DNA of 27,862 nt, from IMG/VR virus record IMGVR_UViG_3300025131_010687, positions 1 through 27,862 of that record, one strand, 5' to 3'. This document shows positions 5,465 through 26,475 of the stretch, piece after piece. The position numbers and the translations under genes were made by a program. The notes beneath the pieces were generated by a model. The model was not told the origin of the DNA and made no database searches. It saw nothing but the letters and a program-made list of their open reading frames with translations. Position 1 is the stretch's first letter. Each line of letters starts with the position of its first letter. Source of the DNA: a virus.

Positions 5465-5511
5465 CTTAATTAACTTTCTACTAATTATATTATATTCCAA
5501 GGAGATTTGTT

Positions 5512-9318: not shown

Positions 9319-9406
9319 CCTAAAGTAAATATGACTGGAAAAAAACAATCGTTATTTTTATACAAAAAAAACACAAACTAATTATTTTAGAGGATTCACA
9401 CACTGC

Positions 9407-11695: not shown

Positions 11696-12478
11696 ATGAC
11701 CCACATCTCATATTCCGAATTAAAAGAGTGGACCGTGTGTCCATGGAAGCACAAATTAAATTACATTGATAGGATCAATGAATTTAAAGGAAACGAACAT
11801 ACAGCATTTGGCACCAGCATGCATACTGTATGTGAACATTTAGTTTCAGATGGCAAATTAGAGTCGACTGATTTTTTTGATAAAGAGTTTGTGAAAAATC
11901 TTTCCACTATTAAAGAAAAAGACCCCAATATCGTTTTTAAGAAAGATTTAGTGGAACAGATGAGAGTACAAGGAGTGGCGCTCATCAAACATGTGCTCCC
12001 TGCTCTTCGCTCGTATTTTAGAAAGTTTGAGTTAATTTCAATAGAAGAAAAATTATACACCCCGATTGCAGATCAAGAGTTTAATTTTAAGGGCTTTGTA
12101 GATCTAGTTGTAAAAACCTCAGACGGTAAATACCACGTGGTCGATTGGAAAACATGCTCTTGGGGGTGGGATAGTAGAAAAAAGAACGACAAGATGATAA
12201 CCTATCAGCTTACCCTCTATAAGCATTTTTGGAGTAAAAAACACAACGTTGACCCTAAAGACGTAATTACGCATTTTGCGTTGCTAAAGCGCACAGCGAA
12301 ACACCATCAAGTAGAATTATTTAAAGTTACTAGCGGCCAGAAAAAAACACAAAACGCTCTTAAACTCTTAAATAAAGCCATATATAATATTCAAAAAGCC
12401 AATTTCATTAAAAATAAATTAGCGTGTTATGGAAGATATGGCACGTGCGAATACTATAAAACAACCCATTGCCCTTAA
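11696..12478 (+). CDS. Cas4/RecB-like PD-(D/E)XK nuclease with four-cysteine cluster
   Basis: This 260-residue protein has the RecB-family nuclease order. ISYSELKEWTVCPWK gives C15, GTSMHTVCEHL (39-49) gives the conserved H43, KGFVDLVVK gives D136, VVDWKT gives D150 and K152, and QLTLY (171-175) is the QxxxY motif. C15 together with C244, C251 and C259 near the C-terminus forms the arrangement that binds an iron-sulfur cluster in Cas4 and AddB exonucleases. Cas4-like nucleases of this length occur in T4-like marine phages and act in DNA recombination or processing. The C-terminus overlaps the ribosome binding site of the first glycosyltransferase gene. There is no CRISPR array in the window. 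Confidence 0.88.
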   Translation: MTHISYSELKEWTVCPWKHKLNYIDRINEFKGNEHTAFGTSMHTVCEHLVSDGKLESTDFFDKEFVKNLSTIKEKDPNIVFKKDLVEQMRVQGVALIKHVLPALRSYFRKFELISIEEKLYTPIADQEFNFKGFVDLVVKTSDGKYHVVDWKTCSWGWDSRKKNDKMITYQLTLYKHFWSKKHNVDPKDVITHFALLKRTAKHHQVELFKVTSGQKKTQNALKLLNKAIYNIQKANFIKNKLACYGRYGTCEYYKTTHCP

Positions 12479-12486
12479 AGGTGACT

Positions 12487-13758
12487 ATGAATAAAAAAAT
12501 CAAACTCCTAACTTTAGGAGATATGCCGCTTTCTCCGAGCGGCGTGGGTACCCAAACCAAATACATTATTGAATCACTGTTGAGAACAGGCAAATATCAA
12601 GTAGTGAGTTTGGGCGGCGCTATTAAACACCCCAATCACAATCCTATTAAAACCGAAGAGTTTAAAGAAGATTGGGTGATTTATCCTGTGGATGGATATG
12701 GAAATCCTGACTTGGTAAGATCACTAATACGCAATGAAAGGCCCGACATTTTGTGGTTTATGACCGACCCTAGATTTTGGGCATGGCTATGGCAAATGGA
12801 AAACGAGATTAGACCCTTAATACCGATGCTCTATTATCATGTATGGGATAATTACCCCTATCCACACTATAATAAAGTGTTTTATGACTCTAATGACATG
12901 ATTGTGAGTATTTCCAAGCTCACCCAAGACATTGTAGAAACGGTGGCTCCTAGTGTCAAATCAGTGTATTTGCCTCATGCCGTTAATACGGAAGTATTCA
13001 CCCCGCGCGACCCTCATAGCGACGAGATAGAAACAGCCAAAAGAACTCTCTTTGGAGAAAGTTATGATCCGGACAAATTTACTTTTTTTTGGAACAATAG
13101 AAATGCTCGCCGCAAGCAAAGTGGATCTTTGATTTTTTGGTTCAAGGCTTTTTTAGACAAAGTAGGCCACGACAAAGCTTGCTTAGTGATGCACACTGAA
13201 ACAAGAGACCCACATGGCCAGGACCTTCAGGCTATAATTCAAGAGTTGGGACTAACGAACGGCGAAATATATTTTAGCCAGCACAAAGTGGATGCCGCAC
13301 AATTGGCCTTGATCTACAATATGATGGATTGTACCATCAATATATCCGATGCGGAAGGTTTTGGTTTAGCCACGTTGGAATCTCTAGCATCGGGAGTGCC
13401 TATTATTGTTAATATGACAGGGGGCCTTCAAGAACAAGTGACTGACGGTGAAAAATGGTTTGGTATTGGACTCTCCCCAACATCTAAAGCTATAATTGGT
13501 TCCCAAGAGATTCCTTATATATATGAAGATAGACTTTCGGAAGAAATAGTTGTACAAGCCTTATATGATATGTACACTAAATCGCCGGAAGAAAGAAAAA
13601 AACTAGGGGAGCAAGGCCGCCAGCACGTGCTTAAAAATTATAATTTCGAAAATTATGGGAAAGAGTGGGATAATATCTTAACTACGCTCTATGAGGAAGA
13701 GGGGTCATGGAATACTCGCAAACCTCACCAACGTTGGATATTTAAGGAGATAGTATGA
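12487..13758 (+). CDS. GT4-family glycosyltransferase
   Basis: This 423-residue protein starts at ATG 12487, with AAAGGTGA upstream. The N-terminal Rossmann domain begins KIKLLTLGDMPLSPSGVGTQ, with the glycine-rich acceptor loop of GT-B enzymes. The C-terminal domain carries the donor-binding block DAEGFGLATLESLASGVP, with the E-x7-E pair of GT4 retaining enzymes. The downstream TGGLQEQV fits the same family. It is the first of the sugar genes, directly after the nuclease, and its stop overlaps the next start (ATGA). Donor and acceptor cannot be read from sequence. Confidence 0.88.
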   Translation: MNKKIKLLTLGDMPLSPSGVGTQTKYIIESLLRTGKYQVVSLGGAIKHPNHNPIKTEEFKEDWVIYPVDGYGNPDLVRSLIRNERPDILWFMTDPRFWAWLWQMENEIRPLIPMLYYHVWDNYPYPHYNKVFYDSNDMIVSISKLTQDIVETVAPSVKSVYLPHAVNTEVFTPRDPHSDEIETAKRTLFGESYDPDKFTFFWNNRNARRKQSGSLIFWFKAFLDKVGHDKACLVMHTETRDPHGQDLQAIIQELGLTNGEIYFSQHKVDAAQLALIYNMMDCTINISDAEGFGLATLESLASGVPIIVNMTGGLQEQVTDGEKWFGIGLSPTSKAIIGSQEIPYIYEDRLSEEIVVQALYDMYTKSPEERKKLGEQGRQHVLKNYNFENYGKEWDNILTTLYEEEGSWNTRKPHQRWIFKEIV

Positions 13759-15776
13759 AAACTAAAGTAATAGTAAGGGCACCCGCCCTGACTCGTACCG
13801 GGTATGGAGAGCACGGCCGTTTTGTATTAAGAGCATTGCGCACAATGCAAGATGTTTTGGATATACATTTATTACCAGTTAATTGGGGAGCCTCTAATTG
13901 GATGTGGGAAGACACTGAGGAGCGCCGTTGGCTAGATGAGATCACGCATAAGACGGCCATTTATCACCAACAGGCTCAGCAAGCTGGCGTTCCCGTACAT
14001 TACGACATGAGTGTTCAAGTGACTATCCCCAATGAATGGCAGAAGATGGCTGCGATTAATATAGGCGTAACTGCCGGTATTGAGAGTACTAAAGTTGCCC
14101 CTGTGTGGCTAGAAAAAGCCAATGAAATGGATAAAATAGTTACCGTATCCCAACATTCCAAAAATGTTTTTTTAAATACAGCTTATGATGGAACCCACAA
14201 GCACACTGGCGAACCTTTGCGGCTCAAATGTACTACCCCTGTAGAAGTGGTACATTACCCCATTAAAGACTGCGACGCAACTCCTTTAAATTTCCAATGC
14301 TCTACTTCATTTAATTTTTTGACGATTGCACAATGGGGCCCTCGTAAAAATATAGATAACACGATTTGTTGGTTTGTAGAAGAATTTATCGATAATCCCG
14401 ATGTAGGACTGGTAGTGAAAGTGTTTGGAAAAGGAGGGTCTCTCATAGACCGGCAGACTTCCCAACGCCAATTAGAAGCACTCTTGGCACCGTATAAAAA
14501 TAGACAGTGTAAGGTTTATTTTTTACATGGTGATTTAAGCGAAGAAGAAATGCATGGTCTTTATAAACACCCGAGCATCAAGGCGTTTTTCTCGTTAAGC
14601 CATGGCGAAGGATTTGGGCTCCCGCATTTTGAAGCAGCATATTCTGGATTGCCTGTAATCGCTCCTGAGTGGAGTGGATATTTAGATTTCTTGTGCATGC
14701 CCAAAACGGATAAAAAAGGAAGAAGTCGCATTAAGCCACATTTTATTTCCGTTGATTATGAATTGTTACCCATTAACCAAGAGGCCCACTGGGAAGGAGT
14801 ACTAGAAAAGGATGCGATGTGGTGTTTTCCCACACAGGGATCATGTAAAATGAAATTGCGAGAAGTGGTCAAAGATTACGGCCGCTTTAAGAAACAAGCC
14901 AAAACCTTACAGAAATGGATCTTGCAAAATTTTCAGCCTAATGTTCAATATGAAAAACTCGTTTCGAGCGTAGTGGGAAATTTAAAGGCTACGCCGGAGC
15001 CATGGCTTCCTCCTCAAAGTATTGGGGGGGTGAGTTTTTGTATTCCAACAAATGGAAAAAGATCCGAAAAAACCGATTTAACTATTAAAAGTATTCAGAA
15101 CCAACCATGGGGCGAATTGCCTTATGAAATTATAGTATGCGGGGATGTGGAAAATTTTCAAAACTCTTCGGGTGCCAATATCGTTCTGGTGGAGAAGAAA
15201 GACGCATCCACCACCGGCCATGTGGCCACTTTGCGAAATGGCGCAGTCGACCATGCTCAATATGATACCATTGTATTTTGCGATGATGACATTTTGTTAG
15301 ATGCGGATTGGCTGGACGGCACAAGAGCCTATAACGAGAATAATGGCTGGCAGGTCTTAGGAAACGCTTTGCTCAACCCAGATGGTACTCGTCACTGGGA
15401 CCGTGCTTTATTGTCTCCGCATGTGTTGGTTAATTATAACCATCCAAGCACGGATAAAAATCTTATCCAAACATCAGGCTTTTTTATGATTCGACGTTCC
15501 CTCCACGAAATAGTGCAGTGGAACGAAGAGTGCTTTGTTTATGCTGATCGAGAGAATAAGGGCGTACCCGAAGATGTGCAGTATAGTTTAGATTTACACG
15601 CCCATAACATTCCTTTATCTTTTAATGATACAGTATGTGTGTGGCACAATGATGAGCGCTACACCCAGTTTAACAATCAAACATTATATAAAAATGTTAT
15701 TCCTGATCATCAAGAGCGAGGATTCTCTCCACTATTTGAACGGGCGACGATGGCGGCCACTTTCCAAAAGATATGA
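13755..15776 (+). CDS. Bifunctional GT4-GT2 glycosyltransferase
   Basis: This 673-residue protein is about twice the usual size, because two transferases are fused. The N-terminal GT-B part (1 to about 415) has AQWGPRKNIDN and the donor block HGEGFGLPHFEAAYSGLP (283-300). The C-terminal GT-A part starts near residue 425 with SFCIPTNGKRSEKTDLTIKS and has CDDDILLDADW around 505-515 as its DxD site. It then has SGFFMIRRSLHEIV and EDVQYSLDLHAHNIP, a GT2-type acceptor region. Such a fusion can add two successive sugars in one pass. AAGGAG lies before the ATG. The stop overlaps the next ATG. Confidence 0.87.
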   Translation: MKTKVIVRAPALTRTGYGEHGRFVLRALRTMQDVLDIHLLPVNWGASNWMWEDTEERRWLDEITHKTAIYHQQAQQAGVPVHYDMSVQVTIPNEWQKMAAINIGVTAGIESTKVAPVWLEKANEMDKIVTVSQHSKNVFLNTAYDGTHKHTGEPLRLKCTTPVEVVHYPIKDCDATPLNFQCSTSFNFLTIAQWGPRKNIDNTICWFVEEFIDNPDVGLVVKVFGKGGSLIDRQTSQRQLEALLAPYKNRQCKVYFLHGDLSEEEMHGLYKHPSIKAFFSLSHGEGFGLPHFEAAYSGLPVIAPEWSGYLDFLCMPKTDKKGRSRIKPHFISVDYELLPINQEAHWEGVLEKDAMWCFPTQGSCKMKLREVVKDYGRFKKQAKTLQKWILQNFQPNVQYEKLVSSVVGNLKATPEPWLPPQSIGGVSFCIPTNGKRSEKTDLTIKSIQNQPWGELPYEIIVCGDVENFQNSSGANIVLVEKKDASTTGHVATLRNGAVDHAQYDTIVFCDDDILLDADWLDGTRAYNENNGWQVLGNALLNPDGTRHWDRALLSPHVLVNYNHPSTDKNLIQTSGFFMIRRSLHEIVQWNEECFVYADRENKGVPEDVQYSLDLHAHNIPLSFNDTVCVWHNDERYTQFNNQTLYKNVIPDHQERGFSPLFERATMAATFQKI

Positions 15777-16549
15777 AATTATCTATTATAACCGCTGTTG
15801 GGCCCCTAAAGCACTATGAAAAATTTATTCCTCGATATATCGATAATGTAATGGCTCAAACTGTTTTTAGTGAATGCGAAATTATTGTAGTTTACATGGA
15901 ATGGGATGAGAAATTTACACAGTTAAATAAACTAAATAATGTTAAGTATATTCTTGACGACCAAGAAAAAGGCGCCTATAATGCTTGGAATATGGGAATC
16001 CAAGCTAGCAATGCACCCTATGTAACAAATTGGAATATTGACGACATTAGGCACCCCACTAGTTTGGAACGCCAAGCTACCATATTGGATAATAATTCTG
16101 ATATTGATTTAATCTACAATTATCACATGATAACTAATGATTGGGAAGAAACGTTTAAGAATCTTAATCCACACACAGAGCGGCATGTTAAATTTTATCC
16201 CGATGATGGACATGCAGTGGTCCATCAATGCTGCATGTGTGGACCAGATCCATTATGGAGGCGCGCCCTACACGATAAGGTAGGCTATTTTGATTATGAG
16301 AACTACCCTTCTATCGCGGATTGGGATATGTGGATTCGGATGGCCGACGCAGGGTGCAAGTTTAAACTTATTCCCTTACCACTGTGTCTTTTTTATGATG
16401 GTGATTCCAGCATTAGCCAACGTTTTCAATCTTCGCGAGAAGAAATAGAAAATAAAAAATTATACCAGCAGCACAAAGAGGGGTTTGATAACGTCTCTCC
16501 GGTTAAGTGGTCGATAGGACGCGTGTATATTAATGAAAAAAGTTATTAG
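15773..16549 (+). CDS. GT2-family glycosyltransferase
   Basis: This 258-residue protein begins MKLSIITAVGPLKHYEKFI, the first strand of GT-A fold GT2 enzymes. QEKGAYNAWNMGI precedes WNIDDIRHP (87-95), with D90-D91 in the nucleotide-sugar/metal site. ADWDMWIRMADAG (about 183-195) matches the GT2 acceptor/catalytic block, usually E/D-D-x-D. It overlaps the previous gene by ATGA and the next by 17 bases. No transmembrane segment is present, so it is soluble or loosely membrane associated. The sugar specificity is unknown. Confidence 0.87.
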   Translation: MKLSIITAVGPLKHYEKFIPRYIDNVMAQTVFSECEIIVVYMEWDEKFTQLNKLNNVKYILDDQEKGAYNAWNMGIQASNAPYVTNWNIDDIRHPTSLERQATILDNNSDIDLIYNYHMITNDWEETFKNLNPHTERHVKFYPDDGHAVVHQCCMCGPDPLWRRALHDKVGYFDYENYPSIADWDMWIRMADAGCKFKLIPLPLCLFYDGDSSISQRFQSSREEIENKKLYQQHKEGFDNVSPVKWSIGRVYINEKSY

Positions 16550-17186
16550 TTTTAGTTTGTGGGGCGACGATGAGAAATATACCATCGGCGCTATTCGCAA
16601 TGCACAATTGGCCTCCCAAGTATATCCTGAATGGGAAGCGCGCTTTTATTGTGGGACGTCAGTCCCCGTTTCTATCATAGATCAATTGCGCGAATTACAG
16701 GCCCATGTGATCATGATGGAAGAAGCAGGGGATTGGACTGGAATGTTCTGGCGCTTCCTCGCAATTGCCGACTCAGATGTAGAAATCATGATTTCGAGGG
16801 ACACTGATTCACGATTAAACACCAGAGAAAAAGCCGCAGTGGATGAATGGCTTGAAGGCCCCCAACTTTTTCATATTATGAGAGACCATCCATGGCATAA
16901 TGCCCCCATTTTAGGCGGAATGTGGGGCGCCCGCAAACCCTTGCTTCAGGACATGGCTCAGTTAATAGCCGAATATCAAAAAGGAGATTTTTGGCAAGTA
17001 GATCAAAATTTTCTAAGAGAAGTGGTAGCTCCTCGGGTCGAACATACTTTACATATTCATGATGAATTTTTTTCACGGAGTCCTTTTCCTACGGCTCGCA
17101 ATGGTGATGAATTTGTAGGACAGGTATTTGACGAAAGTGAACAAACCATCCAAGAACATATCGAGATTTTAAGGAGATATTTATGA
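16533..17186 (+). CDS. GT-A-like glycosyltransferase with RDTDSR motif
   Basis: This 217-residue protein starts KKVISFSLWGDDEKYTIGAI. It has GMFWRF (70-75), ISRDTDSRLNTRE (87-99, a DxD-type metal site) and ILGGMWGAR (about 126-134). The set is characteristic of a small family seen in capsule and phage sugar clusters. I have no enzyme characterisation in mind for it. It is annotated as glycosyltransferase-like from the DxD site and the genomic context. Its start lies within the last 17 bases of the GT2 gene. Confidence 0.75.
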   Translation: MKKVISFSLWGDDEKYTIGAIRNAQLASQVYPEWEARFYCGTSVPVSIIDQLRELQAHVIMMEEAGDWTGMFWRFLAIADSDVEIMISRDTDSRLNTREKAAVDEWLEGPQLFHIMRDHPWHNAPILGGMWGARKPLLQDMAQLIAEYQKGDFWQVDQNFLREVVAPRVEHTLHIHDEFFSRSPFPTARNGDEFVGQVFDESEQTIQEHIEILRRYL

Positions 17187-17842
17187 AACATGAACCCTAT
17201 GAATTATGGTGGGAAAATAATTTGGGAAAATCCTATGACCATGCAGGCACCCAACACGAAGCTCCCGATGAAGATGGGTTTATAACGTGGATGGGAGATC
17301 CTTTTGCTATGGATCGCCAACAGGTAAGGAGACTCCTAGATCCCAATATTAAAACATTTTTGGATGTGGGTTGCGGTGCGGCCCCCGAGTATATCGGACT
17401 GCAGCAGAGCCACCCCGACATTGAATACCATGGCGTCGATATTACTCCACGTTTAGTTTCGTATTGCACCAATAAGGGAATTGATGTGGTTTTTGGCACG
17501 GCGCGAAATCTGCCCTTTGATGATGCATCGATGGATGCTGTACATGCGCGCCATGTTCTAGAGCACATGGCAGATTTTAAAGAACCCTTAGCAGAATTCA
17601 TTAGAGTGGCCCGCCAAAAGGTTTATATAGCTTTTTTCATTTCTCCCATTTTAAGCCCCACCAGTCGCATTACTGATATATCACAATTGGACATTCCTTG
17701 TTATAATAATGCATATAGTTTGTCGGAAATAAAAGATTTTTTAGCGAGTAGCACTAAAGTAAAAAGCTATGAATGGTATAGTTTGGGAGGGCATAGTAAA
17801 TGTTTGCTATCCATAGATATAATAGATATAAAGAAAGCGTAA
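17183..17842 (+). CDS. Class I SAM-dependent methyltransferase
   Basis: This 219-residue protein overlaps the previous gene by ATGA and has AAGGAG before its start. Motif I is FLDVGCG (59-65), GVDIT (84-88) holds the acidic ribose-binding residue, NLPFDDASMD (109-118) is motif II/III and HVLEHM (124-129) is typical of Methyltransf_11 enzymes. Within the sugar cluster it probably methylates a sugar hydroxyl or a lipid-linked glycan, but this is inferred from location. A 60-base gap follows, containing only the next gene's ribosome binding site. Confidence 0.88.
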   Translation: MKHEPYELWWENNLGKSYDHAGTQHEAPDEDGFITWMGDPFAMDRQQVRRLLDPNIKTFLDVGCGAAPEYIGLQQSHPDIEYHGVDITPRLVSYCTNKGIDVVFGTARNLPFDDASMDAVHARHVLEHMADFKEPLAEFIRVARQKVYIAFFISPILSPTSRITDISQLDIPCYNNAYSLSEIKDFLASSTKVKSYEWYSLGGHSKCLLSIDIIDIKKA

Positions 17843-17902
17843 GCTGAATATTCAATACCCTCGCACTGTGTGAACAGCAACGAAAGAGAAGGAGTTATTA
17901 AA

Positions 17903-18445
17903 ATGATAAATGGACAAACGAGATTCGTGTTAGACGAACTGGCACAAGAAGGTATCAAATCCGTCTTAAATATAGGATTCAGATATGATTCAGATAAAAC
18001 TGTTAGAGATTCGGTTCACTCTAGGGGAGGAACTTTTTCTGTTTTAGAAGCGTATGGGCCTAATTGCGCAGATATGCGTATAAAAAATACTGCGGATACT
18101 GTGTATGAAAAAGATGTGCGAAACATTGCGGAGTTAGATGCGGAGTGGGATGCTATTATTTGGCTTCATGGTCCCGAACATGTTTATTGGAATGAATTTG
18201 TGGAGATACGAGAAGAGATTGAGAAAAAAGCTAAAAAACTTGTGCTCTATCAAGCTCCCATTGGAGAATATCCTCAAGACGCTCTTTATGGCAACCCATA
18301 TGAAAAACATGTGGAGGCCCTAACCCCAGAAATGTTCTGGCACCTTGGATATGAAATAGTAGTCCACAATGGTAAAAAAACCCATGCGTATGATTTTGTT
18401 GAAGGAGAGTTGACGTTTTCCGCGGTACACAGAGTGGAGGGTTAA
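17903..18445 (+). CDS. Methyltransferase-like protein
   Basis: This 180-residue protein starts at ATG 17903, with AAGGAG at 17889-17894. A GTG at 17870 in frame would put that site inside the coding region. It reads as a degenerate class I methyltransferase. SVLNIGFRYD occupies the place of motif I, EAYGPNCADM the acidic second strand, and DAIIWLHGPEHVYW the place of the usual HxxEH block. NIGFRYD lacks the classical GxG glycines, so SAM binding may be altered. A small class of such proteins occurs next to phage glycosyltransferases. A sugar-modifying role is inferred. Confidence 0.7.
   Translation: MINGQTRFVLDELAQEGIKSVLNIGFRYDSDKTVRDSVHSRGGTFSVLEAYGPNCADMRIKNTADTVYEKDVRNIAELDAEWDAIIWLHGPEHVYWNEFVEIREEIEKKAKKLVLYQAPIGEYPQDALYGNPYEKHVEALTPEMFWHLGYEIVVHNGKKTHAYDFVEGELTFSAVHRVEG
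18436..18440 (+). promoter_or_regulatory. Strong ribosome binding site for a TTG start
   Basis: GGAGG lies five bases before TTG 18446, inside the end of the previous coding region. It decides the start of the following glycosyltransferase gene, which has no ATG at this position. Confidence 0.7.
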
Positions 18446-19300
18446 TTGTCAAAACTTTTAATAATTCAAGAAAATGGTCGTCATGACGCCAATCGTCATA
18501 TGCGAGAGTGTTTTTCACTTCAACATGGGCTCGCTTCGCATGGTATCGAATCGATTATTTGGGGTCTCGGCCACGACAATTTCTCTATTCCTTTTGAAGA
18601 TATAGTTGCAGATTGTGATGCCATCTTATCAATTGAGAATTATGATACCGGGTGGATGCCAAGCTTGGCCGACATAAAAAAAACCAAGTTGTTTTGGAGC
18701 ATCGACTCTCATTGTGCGCTTCGACAACATCAACATTTTTGCCACCATGCTAAAATTGATATTCTTTTGAACTCTACGCCTCATTATAATCAATTTTATT
18801 CTAATTTAGTTAAAAAACGAGTGTGGTTTCCCAATGCAGTGGATTTAAGATGGTTTAGCCCGTTGGAGTGCGAAAAAAAGCACGATGTAGGGTTTTGCGG
18901 AAGCTTGATTCACGATAGAAAACAGTGGCTTAACACCATTCACCAGCAACTACCAGTACGCGTGGGTACGGGAATATTAGGCCGCGCAATGATTGAAGAG
19001 GTTAATTCTTATCGGGTGTCACTTAATAAGTCAATTGATATAGACATACCATATAGAGTTTTTGAGATGACGGCATGCCGCTTACCTTTGGTGACAAATT
19101 ATGTTCCCAACTTGGAGAGACTCTATGAACTGGGAAAAGAAATCGAAGTATATCAAACAGTTGAGGAATTGATTGCGACGACGACACGATTATTAGAAAA
19201 CGAGGAAGAGCGCCACGCATTGGCGCAAGCGGGATATGCTCGCACATTAAGAGACCATAACTATGAAATACGAGCGCGTCAATTAGTGGGACTTTTTTAA
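18446..19300 (+). CDS. CgeB-like GT-B glycosyltransferase (TTG start)
   Basis: This 284-residue protein starts with TTG directly after the previous stop, supported by GGAGG. The fold is GT-B with an N-terminal strand KLLIIQENGRHD and the C-terminal block PYRVFEMTACRLPLVTNYV (202-220), then YARTLRDHNYEIRARQLV (264-281). That pair is the signature of CgeB/Glyco_trans_1_2 glycosyltransferases. DVGFCGSL (147-154) starts the second domain. At 284 residues it is shorter than usual GT-B enzymes, so the N-terminal domain is reduced. Its stop TAA overlaps the next ATG by one base. Confidence 0.83.
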   Translation: MSKLLIIQENGRHDANRHMRECFSLQHGLASHGIESIIWGLGHDNFSIPFEDIVADCDAILSIENYDTGWMPSLADIKKTKLFWSIDSHCALRQHQHFCHHAKIDILLNSTPHYNQFYSNLVKKRVWFPNAVDLRWFSPLECEKKHDVGFCGSLIHDRKQWLNTIHQQLPVRVGTGILGRAMIEEVNSYRVSLNKSIDIDIPYRVFEMTACRLPLVTNYVPNLERLYELGKEIEVYQTVEELIATTTRLLENEEERHALAQAGYARTLRDHNYEIRARQLVGLF

Positions 19301-20103
19301 TGCCAGACTTTCATATTCAAGAAATATCTCATTTCGCCGAGGATGCACATTATTCATCCTCTTTGTTAGCCGTTCAACATCATATGGGCCTAGGCGATCA
19401 TATACATTTATCCGGGCTCGTGCGCTATACAGTGGTGGAATTGGGTTTCGAGGAAGTGCTTTTGTTTTGCAAAGAAGTTTATTATCAAACAATGACTAGG
19501 CTTTATGCGGACGACGAACGGATAACAGTAGTATCAGTGGGAGACATTTATGGAGGCTTGTCGGAAACTGGTTTAGTAAGAAAACACCTTGAAAGTCTTG
19601 GCAGATCGTGTGTTTATCTGCGCTTAGGCTTTGAGCGCTATCCCGGGCAACTAGCTAACAAATTTGGCTATCCGAGTTTCATTTTTTATGATTTGGCTTG
19701 TATTTCTCGCGACGTACGATGGGAATATTTTAAATTTTCACGCAACCGTCGCGAAGAAAGCCGCCTTTATAAAAAATTGAATCCAAAGGACGTCCCTTAT
19801 ATTTTTGTACATGATGACCCATCTCGCGGCTTTAATATCCCCCTTGAAAGAGTGCTAAAAGCCTCCCCTTTTGCGGACGACAAGCTAGTAATTCGAAATG
19901 ACATGTCCGAAAATATATTAGATTTTGGCGCTATTTTAGAGAATTCCGCGGAGATTCATTGTATGGGGAGCGCTCTATTTTGTTTGGCGGATATGTTATC
20001 TCTAGAGCATCCAAGTTGTTTTTATCACAATATCCGGCCCGTATTCTCTGAATCAGAAATATTACACCAGGACACTCGAAACGAATGGAGTTGGGTACCG
20101 TAA
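19300..20103 (+). CDS. Putative GT-B-like glycosyltransferase
   Basis: This 267-residue protein has HHMGLGDHIHLSGLVR (27-42). The MGLGDxIxxxGLVR loop is the acceptor-side glycine loop seen in small GT-B-like proteins of viral and bacterial sugar clusters, related in style to heptosyltransferase/GT9 enzymes. Near the end, EIHCMGSALFCLADML resembles the donor-side ExxxxSxxxxxAxxL segment. The middle part has basic residues (KFSRNRREES). The family is recognised mainly by these two blocks, so the exact class is uncertain. Confidence 0.6.
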   Translation: MPDFHIQEISHFAEDAHYSSSLLAVQHHMGLGDHIHLSGLVRYTVVELGFEEVLLFCKEVYYQTMTRLYADDERITVVSVGDIYGGLSETGLVRKHLESLGRSCVYLRLGFERYPGQLANKFGYPSFIFYDLACISRDVRWEYFKFSRNRREESRLYKKLNPKDVPYIFVHDDPSRGFNIPLERVLKASPFADDKLVIRNDMSENILDFGAILENSAEIHCMGSALFCLADMLSLEHPSCFYHNIRPVFSESEILHQDTRNEWSWVP

Positions 20104-20540
20104 TGGAGAAGCTACTTCAAATAGACGAAGGAAACAAGTCGTTGATCGAAGAGTTTCAGCGGACAGCCGGTTCCTCGTTAAAAACATTTAGATATTTTGA
20201 ATCTCGGCCGGTGGACATCATCCAACAGCACTTGATAACATATATTATGACAGGTGAAAGTGGCGAAATCATCGGCTATGGCCATTTAGACCTGGAAGAC
20301 AACGTTGTCTGGCTTGGAATATGTATAGTAGAAACTCAGTTGCGTTCCGGTTACGGGAAAAAAATGATGAAGGCTTTAATCGCTTTTGCTGATAACAACT
20401 CTGTTCAGACGATCACTTTGTCGGTTGACAAAAAAAACGAAGCAGCGTACGCGCTATATAAAAGCTTAGGCTTCCAGAGAACCGGTCATGATAAAACAGT
20501 GTACTTTATGAAATTAGAATTAGGAGAAACAGATGGCTGA
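20103..20540 (+). CDS. GNAT-family N-acetyltransferase
   Basis: This 145-residue protein starts at ATG 20103, overlapping the previous TAA. An ATG at 20085 in frame lies inside the previous gene. Motif A, LRSGYGKKMM (80-89), is the acetyl-CoA pyrophosphate loop (R/Q-xx-G-x-G/A). NEAAYALYKSLGF (112-124) is motif B of GNAT enzymes. In this cluster the obvious amine substrate would be an amino sugar such as perosamine, giving an N-acyl derivative, but the acceptor is inferred. It overlaps the next gene by eight bases. Confidence 0.85.
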   Translation: MEKLLQIDEGNKSLIEEFQRTAGSSLKTFRYFESRPVDIIQQHLITYIMTGESGEIIGYGHLDLEDNVVWLGICIVETQLRSGYGKKMMKALIAFADNNSVQTITLSVDKKNEAAYALYKSLGFQRTGHDKTVYFMKLELGETDG

Positions 20541-20841
20541 TACATTGGGCGGTTTAATTGATAAACTAATCACGGTTGATATGAAGATGTGGAATAATCA
20601 GGAATTTCTTTATGAGGTAAGGAAAATGAGCTTTAAAGAATTTGAAAAAAAGTTTACCACCACGGAAAATGCACGAAATGAACTGTTTGAGTCTATAAAA
20701 AAATGCTGCGATCTAAACGCACAAAGAAATCAACTCATTGATGAGGTAGATGAAAAAATTGTAGAAATGATGGGAGCTTATATCGCGGGGAAAGACTTAG
20801 ATGACGGAAAATACATTCAACGCAAACACAAGACCTATTAG
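20533..20841 (+). CDS. Small helical protein, unknown function
   Basis: This 102-residue protein starts within the end of the acetyltransferase gene, after TTAGGAGAA. The N-terminus TLGGLIDKLITVDMKMWNNQ resembles small all-helical proteins, sometimes named DUF4254-like, that often lie in glycosyltransferase clusters. The rest is charged and helical (KEFEKKFTTTENARNELFES, NQLIDEVDEKI). I cannot state a reaction. It may be a partner or regulator of a neighbouring sugar enzyme. Confidence 0.65.
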   Translation: MADTLGGLIDKLITVDMKMWNNQEFLYEVRKMSFKEFEKKFTTTENARNELFESIKKCCDLNAQRNQLIDEVDEKIVEMMGAYIAGKDLDDGKYIQRKHKTY

Positions 20842-20856
20842 GACAAAACACACGAA

Positions 20857-21531
20857 ATGAAAAAATGTTTTTATATACGTATAACTAAAAATGCCTGTCA
20901 AACGGTTTTTCATTTGTTTAAGAATGAAAGGGGCTTCATAAATCCCCATGCAGGCCCTACCCCGTATTATCGTAGTCCGATTGATGAATCTTTGGCACGC
21001 GAGAAAGATCGCAATTTATATCCTTTTGATTTTGAGCGGAGTGATGTGATTACGTTTAGTTTTGTGCGCAATCCTTATGATCGTGCCGTTTCTTCTTGGA
21101 AACATAGTCTTCGGGAAAACTGGACCACGTTGAAGTTTTTGGATTATTTAAAAAGGCTCCCGGCGTTAATTCCAGCCCAATCGGATTCTTTGAATGACAA
21201 TGATTATGCAATTAGACGCCATACAATGCCTCAATACCAATGGCTCAGTAATCAAGGGGGAGAGTATATTGTAGATTTTATTGGGCGGGTGGAGCACTTA
21301 ACTGAACATGTACGCTTTTTTGGAAAAAAAATGGGGATGGAAACTTTTCCTTCTTCGCTGGGGCGACTTAACTCTTCGCGCCCTGTCAATGATGGGTATG
21401 TTAAATATTATTCCTCTGAAGAAAAAAAATATGTAGAAGAAATTTATGGAAGGGATATCCATCAATTTGGATATGAGTTTGGCGCCCCCGAGCCGTCAAG
21501 TGTTTGTTACTCGCGCCTAGGAGGAGAATAA
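20857..21531 (+). CDS. PAPS-dependent sulfotransferase (Sulfotransfer_2-like)
   Basis: This 224-residue protein has FYIRITKNACQTV at its start, in the place of the 5'-phosphosulfate-binding loop (usual form IPKxGxTS, here ITKNACQT with K11). FSFVRNPYDRAVSSW (68-81) is the 3'-phosphate-binding block with R71 and S79. DFIGRVEHL follows in the usual position. These are the marks of Golgi-type carbohydrate sulfotransferase-like enzymes. They move sulfate from PAPS to a sugar hydroxyl. The APS kinase at 25199-25933 would supply PAPS. The upstream ribosome binding site is weak (AGGA, 14 bases away). Confidence 0.83.
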   Translation: MKKCFYIRITKNACQTVFHLFKNERGFINPHAGPTPYYRSPIDESLAREKDRNLYPFDFERSDVITFSFVRNPYDRAVSSWKHSLRENWTTLKFLDYLKRLPALIPAQSDSLNDNDYAIRRHTMPQYQWLSNQGGEYIVDFIGRVEHLTEHVRFFGKKMGMETFPSSLGRLNSSRPVNDGYVKYYSSEEKKYVEEIYGRDIHQFGYEFGAPEPSSVCYSRLGGE

Positions 21532-21538
21532 GAGAAAT

Positions 21539-22774
21539 ATGACTATGCGAATTCCCGCTGCTTGTGTCGTACATGAGCTAGGATATGTGGTGTTAGACGA
21601 TGAAACGAGAAAAGCCTATCGTGTGGTCACACACCCAGTGTTCGAGTTTATAACTTCAGAGGCTTATAAGAAGAAAGAAAATGAATATTGGCCAGCAACG
21701 CGACCCGTTTCTGTGACTCATGAATTATTTAAAGATGATGCCACTTACAAAACTGTTGAAGTGGACTACGTGGATCATATGGTATATTGGCCCGAAATGT
21801 CCGCGCGGGATATTAAAATGTGTCTTTTGTTTTTGTGTGATGTTTCAAAATATTTGGCGCAAAACAATTTGTGTTTGGGATCCCACATGTGGAATATTAC
21901 ATTGACCGGTGGACGCCCCCTTCTTATAGATTTAGGTGATTTTTTTCATGGCGTAAACAAACAATATGTTTATCGCACCATCGTTAGTCATCTAGTTCCT
22001 CCTTTCACGGATAATCATACCCCTTTGCGTCCCGAAAAATGGATGACAAACTATGATGAAATATTGGTTCAAATAAAGAACATTGAGGGTCTGGTTCGAA
22101 CACCGTCAGCCAGCGGCGTTCAAATTGCCGAAGAATTAAAACGTTGCTTGTCCAATATTATCCCTCGCGAAGCTTCCCATATTTGGGATAGTTATCCGGC
22201 ACAAAAAAAGATGCCCACTGACATTGAAACTTTAGAAAGTTACGCCCAGAACATGCGTCCCAATTTGTGCGCTAGGATTAAGCAAAAAGCCCCCCAGACC
22301 CTTTTGGATTTGGGCTGCGCGCGAGGATTGTATTCTCTTTTCGCTGCAATTCAGGGCGCTTCGGTAGTAGGTCTTGATTATAGCCATGAAATGATAGGGG
22401 ACGCCAATCAGAAAAGTGCCGCTTTAAAATTAAAATGCCACTTTGCTTTCATAGATTTGCTTGACATTAAAAAATGGGGGTTAGGAGGCGGTTATGGAGA
22501 TTGTCTATCACGCTTTAAAAGCGATGCGGTTATCGCCCCCGCGTTGATTCACCACGTGCATGGGAAAAATAAACCTCTCGAAATATTGATCACGGAGTGG
22601 GCAAACGCCGCCACGCAATGGATTATGGTAGAGTATATTCCTCTCGATGTTAATAATCAACCAATCGACTTAAACACGATAACGGACACTTTACATGACC
22701 TAGGATTTAAAAATATAGATATATTGAATTCTCATCCTGCCCCTAGGAAGTGGATTTTTGCAGAAAAGACTTAA
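21539..22774 (+). CDS. Kinase-like domain fused to SAM methyltransferase (NoeA-like)
   Basis: This 411-residue protein has two parts. The N-terminal 190 residues carry GSHMWNITLTGGRPLLIDLG (114-133), which matches the HxxN...D-x-G pattern of kinase-like folds. H116, W118, N119 and D131 are visible, and this form (HxWN...VxxD.G) is found next to methyltransferases such as the nodulation protein NoeA. The C-terminal domain has motif I LLDLGCARG (255-263), VVGLDYS (276-282) and a motif IV-like AVIAPALIHHVHG. AGGAGGAG lies 12 bases before the ATG. A second in-frame ATG is at 21545. It probably methylates a glycan. The role of the kinase-like part is unknown. Confidence 0.82.
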   Translation: MTMRIPAACVVHELGYVVLDDETRKAYRVVTHPVFEFITSEAYKKKENEYWPATRPVSVTHELFKDDATYKTVEVDYVDHMVYWPEMSARDIKMCLLFLCDVSKYLAQNNLCLGSHMWNITLTGGRPLLIDLGDFFHGVNKQYVYRTIVSHLVPPFTDNHTPLRPEKWMTNYDEILVQIKNIEGLVRTPSASGVQIAEELKRCLSNIIPREASHIWDSYPAQKKMPTDIETLESYAQNMRPNLCARIKQKAPQTLLDLGCARGLYSLFAAIQGASVVGLDYSHEMIGDANQKSAALKLKCHFAFIDLLDIKKWGLGGGYGDCLSRFKSDAVIAPALIHHVHGKNKPLEILITEWANAATQWIMVEYIPLDVNNQPIDLNTITDTLHDLGFKNIDILNSHPAPRKWIFAEKT

Positions 22775-22787
22775 AGATATTTGACTT

Positions 22788-23888
22788 ATGATTCCTATTT
22801 ATAAACCTTATTTGCCTTCTCACTCGCTGAGACATGCGCATGCCGCGATTGACTCTACGTGGATCTCTTTTAACGGCCCATACGTGGAGCGCGCAACAGA
22901 GAAGTTGCGCGAATTATTAGGAGTGAAATATGTCCAGCTTGTCAACAATGGCACCGCAGCTACTCATTTAGTAGCGAAAGGGCTTTTTTATAAGCATCCC
23001 AATATCACTAAAGTTATTGTACCTAATAATGTGTATGTCGCTGCATGGAATGCTTTTGTTTATGATAAAAACTTTGATCTTGTGCCCATCGATGCTGATG
23101 TGGCAACCTGGAATATGAACATCGAGGCCGCAAGTCATTTATTAGATGACAATAATACAGCGCTGTACGCGGTACATAATTTAGGCAATACAATTAACAT
23201 TCCGGCACTTAAGCGTAGATTTGGGAAGTGCGTCTTTGTAGAAGATAATTGCGAAGGGTTTATGGGAACCTACGAAGGAAAGTATTCTGGTACCGAATCT
23301 TTGGCCTCTTCAGTGTCTTTTTTTGGCAATAAAACAATCACTTCAGGAGAGGGCGGCGCCGTTATTACCAACGATGAAGACGTTTTTAAACATGTCAAAT
23401 CCGTTCACGGCCAAGGACAGGCACCAACTAAAAAATACATTCATGATAGACTTGGCCATAACTATAGAATGACAAATGTGCAAGCTGCGATTTTATTAGG
23501 CCAGTTAGAAATCTTACCAGAAATTTTAGAAAAGAAGAAGAATATATTTGATTTTTACAAAAAAGAATTTGCTCTGATGAGAAATGTTGAAGTTCAACAA
23601 GTCGAAGAGGGGTGCACTCCTTCCAACTGGATGATGGGAGTGCGCCTACGATCTAGGGGAGGTTACGCCTCTTTGCAGAATTTTCTCGCTGATAAGGGCA
23701 TTGACTCACGACCGATGTTTTATCCCATGTCTTCGCACTCTCATTTGAAACATGTTGCTTCCCCCACCAGGGAAAAGGGGGCTAAAATACTTCACAAAGA
23801 GGGTGCAATTCTCCCCTCCTTCCCTGAATTAACGCATAATGAACTTGTCCACATTGTGGCTTCTATTGAGGAATACGCCAACAAATGA
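22788..23888 (+). CDS. DegT/DnrJ/EryC1/StrS aminotransferase, GDP-perosamine synthase-like
   Basis: This 366-residue PLP enzyme of normal length has VNNGTAATHL (52-61) as phosphate-binding region, VEDNCEG (151-157) with D153 and SFFGNKTITSGEGGAV (177-192) with K182 as the internal aldimine lysine. SFFGNKTIT(T/S)GEGG is the typical sequence of GDP-4-keto-6-deoxymannose 4-aminotransferase (Per/RfbE). GDP-mannose 4,6-dehydratase, which makes its substrate, is encoded by the next gene, with ATGA overlap. The combination points to GDP-perosamine. The family also includes other sugar aminotransferases, so the exact product needs a test. HNYRMTNVQAAILLGQLE is the usual downstream conserved block. 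Confidence 0.87.
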   Translation: MIPIYKPYLPSHSLRHAHAAIDSTWISFNGPYVERATEKLRELLGVKYVQLVNNGTAATHLVAKGLFYKHPNITKVIVPNNVYVAAWNAFVYDKNFDLVPIDADVATWNMNIEAASHLLDDNNTALYAVHNLGNTINIPALKRRFGKCVFVEDNCEGFMGTYEGKYSGTESLASSVSFFGNKTITSGEGGAVITNDEDVFKHVKSVHGQGQAPTKKYIHDRLGHNYRMTNVQAAILLGQLEILPEILEKKKNIFDFYKKEFALMRNVEVQQVEEGCTPSNWMMGVRLRSRGGYASLQNFLADKGIDSRPMFYPMSSHSHLKHVASPTREKGAKILHKEGAILPSFPELTHNELVHIVASIEEYANK

Positions 23889-24856
23889 AAGCGATAATAA
23901 CCGGAGTAACAGGACAAGATGGGTCATATTTGGCGGAATTGTTATTAAAAAAAGGCTATGAGGTGATCGGATTAAAAAGGCGCTCTTCCACTATTTGTAC
24001 CGAGCGTATCGATCCCATTTACGAGCATCCTAACTTCTATTTGCGTTATTTTAATTTAAACGATAGTGGGTGTTTTTGGAGACTTTTGCTGGAATATCAA
24101 CCGGATGAAGTGTACAATTTGGGGGCCCAATCTCATGTGAAAGTCTCTTTCGAAACTCCCGAAGAAACCGTGAAGAGCATCGCTTTGGGAACTTTGCGCC
24201 AACTAGAAGCTATTCGTACGATCAATCCGGCCATTCGCTTCTATCAAGCCTCTTCCTCTGAGATGTTTGGAATTAATGTAAATTATCCTTATAACGAGGA
24301 ATCGGTTTCGATCCCAGCTTCCCCCTATGCATGTGCTAAAGTATTTGCGCACAATTTAGTTAAAAATTATAGAGCTAGTTATGGGCTTTATGCGTGTAGT
24401 GGTATTCTTTTCAACCATGAATCGCCCCGTCGAGGCGAAACCTTCGTCACTCGGAAAATTTCCTTAGCTGCAGCTAAAATTAAATTAGGACTACAGGATA
24501 AATTATATTTGGGGAACTTAGAAGGAAAGCGAGATTGGGGATTTGCAGGAGATTATGTAGAAGCAATGTGGCTCATGATGCAGCAACAACATCCCGAAGA
24601 TTTTGTTATTGCCACGGGCATAATGAAGTCTGTACAAGATTTTGTAGAATGCGTTTTTGATTATGCTAAACTGGACTATAAAAAATATGTGGCAGTTGAT
24701 GATCAGCTGAAACGTCCCCAAGAGGTACCGGCTCTACAAGGTGATTATTCTAAGGCCCAAAAAATATTGAAATGGGGCCCTCGCGTTACTTTTGAGGAAT
24801 TAGCAGTGATGATGTATGAATCGGACTTACAAAAGCTACAAAGGAAGACGAGATGA
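23885..24856 (+). CDS. gmd: GDP-mannose 4,6-dehydratase
   Basis: This 323-residue SDR enzyme is slightly shorter than bacterial Gmd (about 345-370). TGVTGQDGSYL (6-16) is the Gxx(G)xxG NAD(P)-binding loop. KRRSSTICTERID (31-43) is the Gmd-type NADP phosphate block. QASSSEMFG (121-129) carries S125 and E126, and SPYACAK (146-152) is the YxxxK pair Y148/K152. NHESPRRGETFVTRKI (177-192) is a diagnostic Gmd block. It converts GDP-mannose to GDP-4-keto-6-deoxy-mannose, which the neighbouring aminotransferase can aminate. Its start overlaps the aminotransferase stop (ATGA), supporting one pathway. Confidence 0.93.
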   Translation: MKAIITGVTGQDGSYLAELLLKKGYEVIGLKRRSSTICTERIDPIYEHPNFYLRYFNLNDSGCFWRLLLEYQPDEVYNLGAQSHVKVSFETPEETVKSIALGTLRQLEAIRTINPAIRFYQASSSEMFGINVNYPYNEESVSIPASPYACAKVFAHNLVKNYRASYGLYACSGILFNHESPRRGETFVTRKISLAAAKIKLGLQDKLYLGNLEGKRDWGFAGDYVEAMWLMMQQQHPEDFVIATGIMKSVQDFVECVFDYAKLDYKKYVAVDDQLKRPQEVPALQGDYSKAQKILKWGPRVTFEELAVMMYESDLQKLQRKTR

Positions 24857-25206
24857 GTGTTGAAATGAAAGAAATTTCCTATGAAATTAAAAAGAATACA
24901 ATTGCTATTGATTTTGATGGCGTTTTACATCAATATTCTAAAGGGTGGCAAGGGCTGTACAATGCTTATGACCCGCCTATGAAAGGGGCCGTTGCGGCCA
25001 TTAAAAAACTGAAAGCCTCTGGCTATCGTCTGGTGATTTTTTCTAGTCGGGCAGTCCCGGTGATCCAAGAGTGGCTTCACAAATATGATTTAGATGATTG
25101 TTTCGAAGAGGTCACAAACACTAAAATCCCAGCCCGTGTTTATATAGATGATCGTGCTTATCATTTCGACACATGGGAAAAAACGATGGAGGACTTGTTT
25201 GATTGA
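24853..25206 (+). CDS. HAD-like phosphatase
   Basis: This 117-residue small HAD protein is without a cap domain. IAIDFDGVLHQ (17-27) is motif I with D20 and D22, VIFSSRAVPV (61-70) is motif II, K91 is in the KIPARVYIDDRAYHFD stretch, and D99/D100 are motif IV. Such small HAD proteins are frequent in T4-like phages. It overlaps the gmd stop (ATGA). Its end contains the ribosome binding site for the APS kinase gene. A sugar-phosphate or nucleotide substrate is possible. None can be read from the sequence. Confidence 0.85.
   Translation: MSVEMKEISYEIKKNTIAIDFDGVLHQYSKGWQGLYNAYDPPMKGAVAAIKKLKASGYRLVIFSSRAVPVIQEWLHKYDLDDCFEEVTNTKIPARVYIDDRAYHFDTWEKTMEDLFD
25188..25193 (+). promoter_or_regulatory. 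Strong ribosome binding site for a TTG start
   Basis: GGAGGA lies five bases before TTG 25199 within the end of the HAD gene. It favours TTG over the in-frame ATG at 25148 as start of the APS kinase gene, because the longer reading would make only out-of-frame HAD sequence. Confidence 0.7.
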
Positions 25207-25933
25207 TTCGAGCAAAAGAAGCTGGAGCAAAGCCGGAAGTTGGAAAGTATTGGGGTTTCTCGTTCTTTCCTCTCTTGCTTATGCCGCCACAGGCTCTTTA
25301 AAGCAAACTTCTGTAGTGGCCATCGTTTATCAGTTGGTAATGCTAGCCCTATTTGTGATTCATGAAAAGGTATGGAATAAGATCCAGTGGGGAAAAACAA
25401 GTGGTTTATTTATCCAAATGACAGGTATGAGCGGCGCCGGTAAGACCACTTTGGCCAAAAGCGTAGGGCAAAATTTACAGAAACAAGGGATCAAAGTGGA
25501 GGTAATCGATGGCGATGAATATAGAACAAATTTATGTCAAGATTTGGGATTTACACGGCAAGATAGAGAGGAAAATATACGAAGGCTATCGTTTGTGGGG
25601 AAAGTACTTGGCCGCAATAATGTAGTATGCATTATGTCGGCTATTAATCCCTATAATACAACGCGTAGCCATATTAAACAAGCCTCTCCTAATTCTAAAT
25701 TAGTATATATTAAATGCGATTTGGAAGAATTAAAAAAACGAGACACCAAAGGTCTTTACGAGAGAGCGCTCCTTCCCGATGGAGACCCAAATAAGGTTTA
25801 TAATTTTACCGGGATTTCCGATCCCTTTGATGTCCCAGCCGACCCAGATTTAATTATTGAAACCGACAAAGAATCTTTAACTAATTCCATAATCAAATTG
25901 GAAAAATTAATTTTAAAAAGTATTGGAGGATAA
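25199..25933 (+). CDS. cysC: DUF2061 membrane domain fused to APS kinase (TTG start)
   Basis: This 244-residue protein has RSWSKAGSWKVLGFLVLSSL and ALFVIHEKVWNKIQWG at its start. Residues 1-65 thus form a DUF2061 domain with two membrane helices (about 18-34 and 38-57). APS kinase follows: P-loop GMSGAGKT (76-83), IDGDEYR (103-109) in place of the DGDxxR block, LGFTRQDREENIRR (116-129) and KGLYERA (184-190), all typical of CysC. The reaction phosphorylates adenylylsulfate to PAPS, the donor used by the sulfotransferase at 20857. No ATP sulfurylase is in the window, so APS must come from the host or elsewhere in the genome. The membrane domain should hold the enzyme at the inner membrane. Confidence 0.88.
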   Translation: MIDSSKRSWSKAGSWKVLGFLVLSSLAYAATGSLKQTSVVAIVYQLVMLALFVIHEKVWNKIQWGKTSGLFIQMTGMSGAGKTTLAKSVGQNLQKQGIKVEVIDGDEYRTNLCQDLGFTRQDREENIRRLSFVGKVLGRNNVVCIMSAINPYNTTRSHIKQASPNSKLVYIKCDLEELKKRDTKGLYERALLPDGDPNKVYNFTGISDPFDVPADPDLIIETDKESLTNSIIKLEKLILKSIGG

Positions 25934-25934
25934 T

Positions 25935-26225
25935 ATGAGAGATATTACGATGACAGATCAAGCTGTAGGCGCTGTAATGATGGCGTTGCAGAAAAGTTTA
26001 ATGGAACAAAGCGACATTGTTCCGGTACTCAAGGGCTTCAAATTTGCCGCTACACAAGAAGGGTTGACGGTGATTAACCCGCCTTTGGTTAAGTTTAATG
26101 AGGAGACAACGGAGATTTTCCGCGAGGCCCAGCGCAATGAGTTGAGTGAAGTGTCCACTAGCGAAAGGGCGTCCGATCCCGGGGGCTTTGATGTTGTGAC
26201 GACACAGCCTACTACTTCGGATTAA
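25935..26225 (+). CDS. Conserved small phage protein, unknown function
   Basis: This 96-residue protein starts at ATG 25935, with GGAGGA at 25925-25930. It begins MRDITMTDQAVGAVMMALQ and has SDIVPVLKGFKFAATQEGL in the middle, the pattern of a small protein conserved in T4-like marine phages. The C-terminal third is Ser/Thr/Asp rich and probably disordered. No catalytic motif is visible. It returns the gene order to phage core genes after the sugar region. Confidence 0.72.
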   Translation: MRDITMTDQAVGAVMMALQKSLMEQSDIVPVLKGFKFAATQEGLTVINPPLVKFNEETTEIFREAQRNELSEVSTSERASDPGGFDVVTTQPTTSD

Positions 26226-26226
26226 G

Positions 26227-26475
26227 ATGCCCATATATTTATATGACTGTCGTGGGTGTAAAATTAGTTTTACAATAAGACATGGAATGGACGAGACATG
26301 CGCAGAATGCTTAACGTGCGGTTCTGATAATGTCGTACGCCTTCCTGCTGATTTTACCAATCGTTCTAAATCCATTGTGCGTTCTAAAAAAGTGGGAGAT
26401 ACAACTAAAGATTTTATAGAAAGTGCGAGACAAGATTTAAAAACACAAAAAGAGGAACTAGAGGAACAAAGATGA
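26227..26475 (+). CDS. FmdB-like zinc-ribbon protein
   Basis: This 82-residue protein begins MPIYLYDCRGC, the FmdB-family start. It has the CxxC pairs C8/C11 and C28/C31, with an extra C25. ETCAECLTCGSDNVVRLP follows the family pattern. The rest is a charged helix. Such zinc ribbons are common in T4-like phages near late-gene regulators. A transcription-related role is guessed from neighbours only. The next gene overlaps by ATGA. Confidence 0.83.
   Translation: MPIYLYDCRGCKISFTIRHGMDETCAECLTCGSDNVVRLPADFTNRSKSIVRSKKVGDTTKDFIESARQDLKTQKEELEEQR

Follow-up and report, generated by a model that had tools for sequence, protein, structure and literature searches.

A fixed-position, allele-swapping sugar gene locus of a T4-like phage that may assemble a glycan on a virion protein

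Sugar gene clusters of T4-like marine phages are already known and have been read as serving modification of lipopolysaccharide (LPS) (PMC3037559, PMC7824862, PMC7029224). In the T4-like cyanophages P-SSM2, S-SSM7 and S-SM2, the available portions of two of these papers describe polymorphic LPS clusters with epimerases, aminotransferases and glycosyltransferases (GTs) (PMC3037559, PMC7824862). Here we analyzed a comparable island in IMG/VR virus record IMGVR_UViG_3300025131_010687, a complete record of 27,862 bases (the window), in which positions 12487-25933 carry 16 genes, most of them for glycan synthesis or modification. We give roughly even credence to the reading that the enzymes of this island would assemble a glycan in the cytosol on a virion protein, from a locus of fixed position whose alleles are swapped among related phages.

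The island resembles the cyanophage clusters in being a large sugar cluster (here 16 genes) in a T4-like phage, and one cluster of P-SSM2 also lies near phoH. It differs from what those portions describe by an invariant frame, consisting of a nuclease, two GT4-family glycosyltransferases (GT4a and GT4b) and a late sigma factor, by a late-type promoter motif, and by an absence of membrane components that was tested here. Sulfotransferase and APS (adenosine 5'-phosphosulfate) kinase genes are not mentioned for the cyanophage clusters in the same portions, and the word 'sulfotransferase' does not occur in that of PMC7824862. The pelagimyophage hypervariable region (HRC) is likewise found at a fixed site in marine T4-like phages and carries LPS-type GTs, but it is located between VrlC and gp14 and built around tail fibres, whereas the island runs from nuclease to late sigma factor and has no tail-fibre gene (PMC7029224). 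Virion glycosylation in mycobacteriophages (Freeman et al. 2023, as cited in PMC12619734) is similar in using phage-encoded GTs without an export apparatus, with capsid or tail proteins as the targets that would correspond; the present case differs in comprising a whole pathway with donor synthesis and sulfation, and it is known from genes alone. In moraphages, according to PMC12619734, four GTs are core genes. Bacterial O-antigen and capsule loci (cps, rfb) share with the island the conserved flanks, exchangeable sugar genes, GDP-perosamine genes, and acyl, methyl and sulfate decorations, but no initiating phosphoglycosyltransferase, flippase, polymerase or ABC exporter was detected in the island. 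In the open-access literature we did not find a description of a multi-lineage anchor with gene exchange behind it, its late-type promoter, a tested absence of membrane parts, or a phage sulfation pair, although earlier reports may exist.

All 16 genes are on the plus strand and overlap or lie at most about 30 nucleotides (nt) apart (Table 1), which bears out the initial annotation of a one-directional glycan cluster of about 13 kb and some sixteen genes for donor synthesis, glycosyl transfer, methylation, acylation and sulfation. Each of these functions is represented by domain matches, and 12 of the genes match glycan-pathway or modifying enzymes in Pfam, PHROGs or the PDB. There are five GT domains, three of GT-B/GT4 type and two of GT2 type, accompanied by two methyltransferases, a GNAT acyltransferase, a sulfotransferase, a DegT aminotransferase, a GDP-mannose 4,6-dehydratase, a HAD protein and a DUF2061-APS kinase protein. 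The genes starting at 16533, 17870, 19300 and 20533 matched no Pfam or PHROG family at or above cut-off, and no tail-fibre gene was found among the 16. Homologues of the proteins encoded at 16533 and 19300 are repeatedly adjacent in relatives and are fused in one of them (G009). GT4b, here fused to a GT2 domain, is a stand-alone gene in several relatives. The nuclease, zinc-ribbon and sigma genes named as flanks were recovered as well (PF12705 on the left; PF09723 and phrog_234 on the right). The gene string extends beyond the island on both sides, beginning with phoH (9407) and including the sigma gene, and no gap of more than about 30 nt occurs between these two in the window. Base composition does not mark the island, the GC content being even along the window. 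Two gene starts may need adjustment. Homologues of the APS kinase start only at query residue 10-18, which puts the probable start of this gene near 25199 instead of 25148. The late sigma gene may start near 26770, its homologues aligning from about residue 27.

Table 1. Features of the sugar gene island and its frame, in window coordinates
Feature	Position	Strand	Evidence or remark
CTAATTA, candidate late promoter element 22 nt upstream of phoH	9378..9384	+	G001 position 9262
PhoH-like ATPase, core, first gene of string	9407..10714	+	phrog_2765 E 4e-114
PD-(D/E)XK (Cas4-like) nuclease, conserved left neighbour	11696..12478	+	PF12705 E 2e-18; homologues in immuto, Mel-JY01
GT4a, GT4-family glycosyltransferase, conserved anchor	12487..13758	+	PF00534 E 7e-11, phrog_2170 E 6e-27; 17/17 relatives
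GT4b (residues 1-~420, conserved anchor) fused to GT2 domain (~425-673, variable)	13755..15776	+	Pfam, PHROG
GT2-family glycosyltransferase	15773..16549	+	PF00535 E 5e-9
217-aa protein, probable GT-A transferase	16533..17186	+	SRDTDSR motif by eye; no Pfam/PHROG match
S-adenosylmethionine-dependent methyltransferase (Methyltransf_11)	17183..17842	+	PF08241 E 1.5e-14
191-aa protein	17870..18445	+	no Pfam/PHROG match
GT-B glycosyltransferase (Glyco_trans_1_2)	18446..19300	+	PF13524 E 5e-24
267-aa protein, possible GT-B/GT9-like transferase by eye	19300..20103	+	no Pfam, PHROG or PDB match
GNAT acyltransferase	20085..20540	+	PF00583 E 3e-13
102-aa all-helical protein	20533..20841	+	linked to perosamine aminotransferase (phages), to GNAT (bacteria)
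Carbohydrate sulfotransferase (Sulfotransfer_2)	20857..21531	+	PF03567 E 4e-12, phrog_3347
Two-part 411-aa protein, C-terminal half methyltransferase	21539..22774	+	weak WbdD methyltransferase similarity
DegT aminotransferase, perosamine-synthase type	22788..23888	+	E 1e-63; PDB best 3bn1, 3dr7, E ~3e-47
GDP-mannose 4,6-dehydratase	23885..24856	+	PF16363 E 5e-118; PDB 1n7g E 1e-105
Small HAD-superfamily phosphatase-like protein	24853..25206	+	family match
DUF2061 + APS kinase (PAPS supply)	25148..25933	+	PF01583 E 3e-43, PF09834; PDB APS kinases
Small conserved gene, right island boundary	25923..26225	+	homologues of 13/16 relatives in one cluster
Zinc-ribbon protein, core	26227..26475	+	PF09723 E 9e-8, slightly under cut-off
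Late sigma (gp55-like) factor, core	26695..27468	+	phrog_234 E 2.5e-5; 17/17 relatives

Searches of viral contigs with PhoH and DegT returned 119 loci, and 17 large contigs, of which four measure 185-190 kb and for which completeness is not established, were compared in detail. Starting at window position 117, the 73.9-kb contig G001 is identical to the window except for one mismatch; it adds 46 kb that include large genes, a baseplate wedge gene and a gene for an SbcCD-like protein; by the latter two genes the phage is therefore T4-like. Ten of the 17 contigs, among them the four of 185-190 kb, have a gp23 capsid gene. GT4a, GT4b, the sigma gene and the gene next to it occur in the same order on all 17, and the nuclease is clustered in 14. 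Adjacency is nearly strict for nuclease and GT4a (53 of 54 relatives) and complete for GT4a and GT4b (44 of 44). A subgroup of four loci (L084, L098, L099 and L100) departs from this order: its GT pair is inverted and has been relocated to the left side of phoH.

On every one of the 17 contigs, the variable region is bounded by GT4b and the gp55-like sigma region, and the spans from GT4a to sigma range from 8.8 to 24.6 kb. The gene content is nearly private: clustering of the 448 open reading frames in these intervals gave 212 clusters, the majority of them with a single member. Over all pairs of contigs, which are not independent, cargo sharing did not follow core similarity (Spearman -0.10). 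In the pair G015 and G016, the sigma factors are 96.5% identical, yet only 3 of 24 cargo genes are in common; nucleotide similarity ends at the end of GT4b and returns at the small gene to the right of the island, with two short matches in between. In L041, another close relative, nucleotide identity of about 99% in phoH gives way to 68-83% beyond 10.8 kb. As judged from the alignments, these patterns point to recombination in the flanking regions and to a middle part that is replaced, and the swappable part of the window is therefore placed at about 15,020-25,930. The locus comparison that the initial annotation proposed for defining the module ends thus modifies its view of an inserted accessory module. 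The genes from about 15,020 on are exchanged, but this is not simply a module inserted with its ends at 12487 and 25933: the two leading GTs are conserved to the same degree as the nuclease and sigma genes, and a single insertion of the whole stretch was rejected because of this GT4a-GT4b core in relatives. What is exchanged is again sugar metabolism: a Pfam census of the 237 cargo proteins of 16 relatives yielded mainly sugar-nucleotide dehydratases/epimerases and DegT aminotransferases, and was also rich in NeuB, CMP-sugar synthetases, UDP-sugar dehydrogenases and methyltransferases.

High cargo turnover also fits stuffer DNA, i.e., acquired host genes in decay that have no selected function and are kept for headful packaging, which was raised as an open possibility for the cyanophage LPS clusters (PMC3037559). 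We consider this very improbable here. The reading frames are intact, and motifs identified by eye are kept in the DegT aminotransferase (PLP, i.e., pyridoxal phosphate, lysine), the APS kinase (P-loop) and the dehydratase (YxxxK). In addition, the GT pair and its position are conserved across lineages, and functional pairs travel together, both the 102-aa protein with DegT and the sulfotransferase with APS kinase (3/3 genomes).

Outside the group of relatives, GT4a homologues are scarce among annotated phage isolates. In Flavobacterium phage immuto (NC_055915), and likewise in Microcystis phage Mel-JY01 (PP395634), a PD-(D/E)XK nuclease gene is followed by GT4a, GT4b and then sugar genes, which in immuto are aminotransferases, an epimerase and further GTs. 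Their nucleases are homologous to that of the window (28-29% identity), and the anchor order is alike, whereas the cargo differs and shared genes are 28-39% identical. No open-access paper on these two loci was found. A 484-kb uncultured phage has the nuclease and GT4a, with a relative of the sulfotransferase about 6 kb further on. In Rhodothermus phage RM378 (L185, 6001-8735), GT4a is accompanied by another GT of weak similarity (E 2e-6), and ribonucleotide reductase comes directly after the two, perhaps a minimal form of the locus without cargo. On these sequence comparisons, the anchor is older than the group of relatives.

The initial annotation had noted that Wzx and Wzy genes were missing, and widening the search to 17 contigs gave the same result: neither Wzx (PF01943) nor Wzy_C (PF04932) was matched. 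An initiating transferase of the PF02397 (Bac_transf) type was also without a match in the 17 contigs, the WecA type being covered solely by the helix count of the cargo. In that count, none of the 237 cargo proteins had three or more hydropathy-predicted membrane helices, while the E. coli controls scored as expected, with 6 helices in wzy and 9 in wzx. The GTs of the island have no predicted membrane segments. A flagellin-type protein GT (PF01973, MptE-like) in two relatives was dropped as a candidate for its weak scores, one of them above cut-off. Ser/Thr-rich stretches occur in several large proteins of the relatives, and no acceptor was singled out among them.

These results bear on the alternative that the island remodels the host surface, i.e., that LPS O-antigen or capsule is altered via a host lipid carrier, flippase and ligase, blocking adsorption of competing or sibling virions. 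Published for the cyanophage and pelagimyophage clusters (PMC7029224, PMC7824862), this explanation would also fit the hypervariability, which a superinfection race could drive, and the similarities of some island proteins to O-antigen-related ones, treated below. We nevertheless regard it as rather doubtful, given that the cargo of 16 relatives contains no membrane component and the 17 contigs no PF02397. Furthermore, an invariant pair of soluble GTs amid changing neighbours suggests an acceptor encoded by the phage rather than varied host surfaces. The late-type motif preceding the first gene of the string also argues against it, as exclusion would be expected early.

That motif came from words enriched upstream of genes, computed from two near-complete relatives. 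CTA[AT]TTA was found upstream of the genes for tail sheath, tail tube, baseplate wedge, head-tail adaptor and scaffold-like proteins, and a TTGACA-type word (CTTGACA) upstream of DnaB, SSB, an ATPase and an HNH endonuclease. The T4 late promoter TATAAATA was tried as a mark of late genes and was not enriched upstream of genes, whereas CTA[AT]TTA was. Of 58 distinct loci, 46 have the late-type motif before phoH, as against 2.7 in shuffles, but it stands before GT4a in 0 of 51 and before the nuclease in 1 of 55. Because there is no sizeable gap between phoH and sigma in the window, one late transcript would be the simplest reading.

A third possible target is the phage DNA itself, with glycans placed on modified bases against restriction, as in T4 or in phages carrying TET-like dioxygenases. 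Glycosylation of DNA is an established activity of phage GTs (see PMC12619734 and the work it cites), and the island is located in a replication and recombination neighbourhood, next to the PD-(D/E)XK nuclease. However, the thymidylate-synthase/hydroxymethylase family PF00303 is absent from the 17 contigs, four of them 185-190 kb long, the late-type motif speaks against it, and sulfation and long sugar chains would hardly be expected on packed DNA. We regard this target as improbable.

Within the cargo, the GDP-mannose dehydratase adjoins the perosamine-synthase-type aminotransferase, so that both genes of the GDP-perosamine pathway (Gmd and PerA) are paired. These two enzymes convert GDP-mannose to GDP-perosamine. 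The aminotransferase has the motif FFGNKTITSGEGG with the PLP lysine. Since no recognized gene in the window makes GDP-mannose or APS, both would be supplied by the host. No paper on perosamine in phages was found in the open-access literature.

The neighbouring 102-aa protein has homologues (L003-L038, L165-L170, L187) that are mostly 57-75% identical and in phages usually adjoin the perosamine aminotransferase, and a shorter paralogue (L016, L037, L137) sits in other sugar clusters. A fold search against the PDB gave nothing significant. A profile scan detected bacterial homologues in Bacteroidales bins, next to a GNAT gene; judged by eye, their neighbours appear to be an initiating phosphoglycosyltransferase and an ABC exporter. 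It seems from this by-eye comparison that the phages carry the sugar genes without the membrane parts that flank the Bacteroidales homologue. That the 102-aa protein and a GNAT occur together in these bins, in an apparently O-antigen-type cluster, is one of the points in favour of host-surface remodelling. Another is provided by the two-part protein at 21539, whose C-terminal half weakly matches the methyltransferase of WbdD, the terminator of polymannose O-antigen (E 1e-4). Its N-terminal half matches no family and shows kinase-like motifs by eye only, and the AlphaFold model is poor (pLDDT, the predicted local distance difference test score, 58).

APS kinase makes 3'-phosphoadenosine 5'-phosphosulfate (PAPS), the donor for sulfotransferases. 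The PF03567 sulfotransferase, for which a PDB search gave no match, is private to this phage among the 17, and PF13469 sulfotransferases occur in 2 of 22 records. APS kinase is present in 9 of the 22, including all three with a sulfotransferase, a co-occurrence that is suggestive only (hypergeometric chance about 0.055); several APS kinase carriers have no sulfotransferase of PF03567 or PF13469. The HAD protein adjoins APS kinase in 3 of the 4 phages of the compared set with that kinase. The sulfotransferase relative in the 484-kb phage (L186, LR756508, 15562-16008), which is 32% identical, is located downstream of the nuclease and GT4a.

Together, these results allow a tentative route to be proposed for assembly on a virion protein. 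A conserved acceptor would probably receive the first sugars of the chain from the soluble, conserved GT4a and GT4b. From GDP-mannose, the dehydratase and DegT aminotransferase would make GDP-perosamine, which the GNAT enzyme would N-acylate. Further glycosyl transfers and methylations would follow, and sulfation would use PAPS from the phage APS kinase, giving a sulfated, methylated, perosamine-containing oligosaccharide. The exchangeable genes would supply the chain particular to each phage. Transcription would occur at least partly as a late-type unit, from the phoH promoter into the late sigma gene. Soluble enzymes, a late-type promoter and an invariant leading GT pair are features that a phage-encoded cytosolic acceptor would lead one to expect, although this is not proof. 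Most likely, a virion protein would serve as acceptor and receive its glycan in the cytosol, ahead of lysis, such that each lineage has its own type of surface sugar. The initial annotation had placed virion proteins, host LPS or capsule, and a cell-surface polymer against superinfection side by side. The present results do not weigh the three equally: a cytosolic late target is favoured, though unproven, by the count of 0/237 multi-span proteins, the lack of PF02397, Wzx and Wzy, and the late motif.

Several observations weigh against a virion acceptor. For this phage as for its relatives, the virion glycan is deduced from genes alone. The host could provide lipid-linked initiation, flipping and polymerisation; with a lipid carrier or exporter lent in this way, the absence of membrane genes from the phage does not exclude sugars destined for the host surface. 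In 7 of 55 relatives, as against 0.2 expected, the nuclease is preceded by a sigma-70-like promoter, which may allow the island to be expressed early there, and the promoter classes are based on motifs, not on RNA. The DUF2061 domain of the APS kinase protein has one predicted membrane segment. Finally, the TET/JBP dioxygenase family PF12851 gave no match in a search that had no positive-control match, and a DNA target is thus only partly excluded.

The remainder of the window contains further genes of interest. A complete tmRNA gene with tag ANDNVEFDFALAA (Rfam RF00023 match) lies at 5085-5465, followed at 5512-6636 by a gene for a tubulin/FtsZ-like protein (PF00091 E 2.7e-5, under the curated cut-off), for which tblastn against 50,697 phage records gave no match. 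A trypsin-like protease with a predicted N-terminal membrane segment is encoded on the minus strand at 8524-9348 and adjoins phoH in most relatives. Two proteins have HExxH-type metallopeptidase motifs by eye (676-1458 and 10985-11695); the second is conserved next to the nuclease and matches PF07737 weakly, below threshold.

Sugar clusters of marine phages have so far been read as LPS modification or stuffer DNA, and we found no direct test of either in the literature. With its fixed anchor, the swapping behind it, the lack of membrane parts and the late-type motif, the locus described here makes the question answerable by experiment in the cultured phage immuto. More tentatively than for the virion acceptor itself, we suggest that the locus is a phage counterpart of a serotype locus. 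A conserved two-transferase anchor would equip a virion protein, late in infection, with an oligosaccharide that is specific to the lineage and in some cases sulfated, related marine phages would differ in their surface sugars, and the anchor would have been retained by, or have moved between, phages that infect Bacteroidota, cyanobacteria and unknown marine hosts, with RM378 as the minimal form lacking cargo. The sulfotransferase and APS kinase would make the phage able to sulfate its own glycan. If this is true, phages would have surface-sugar types, with consequences for adsorption, for the binding and loss of particles, and for grazing.

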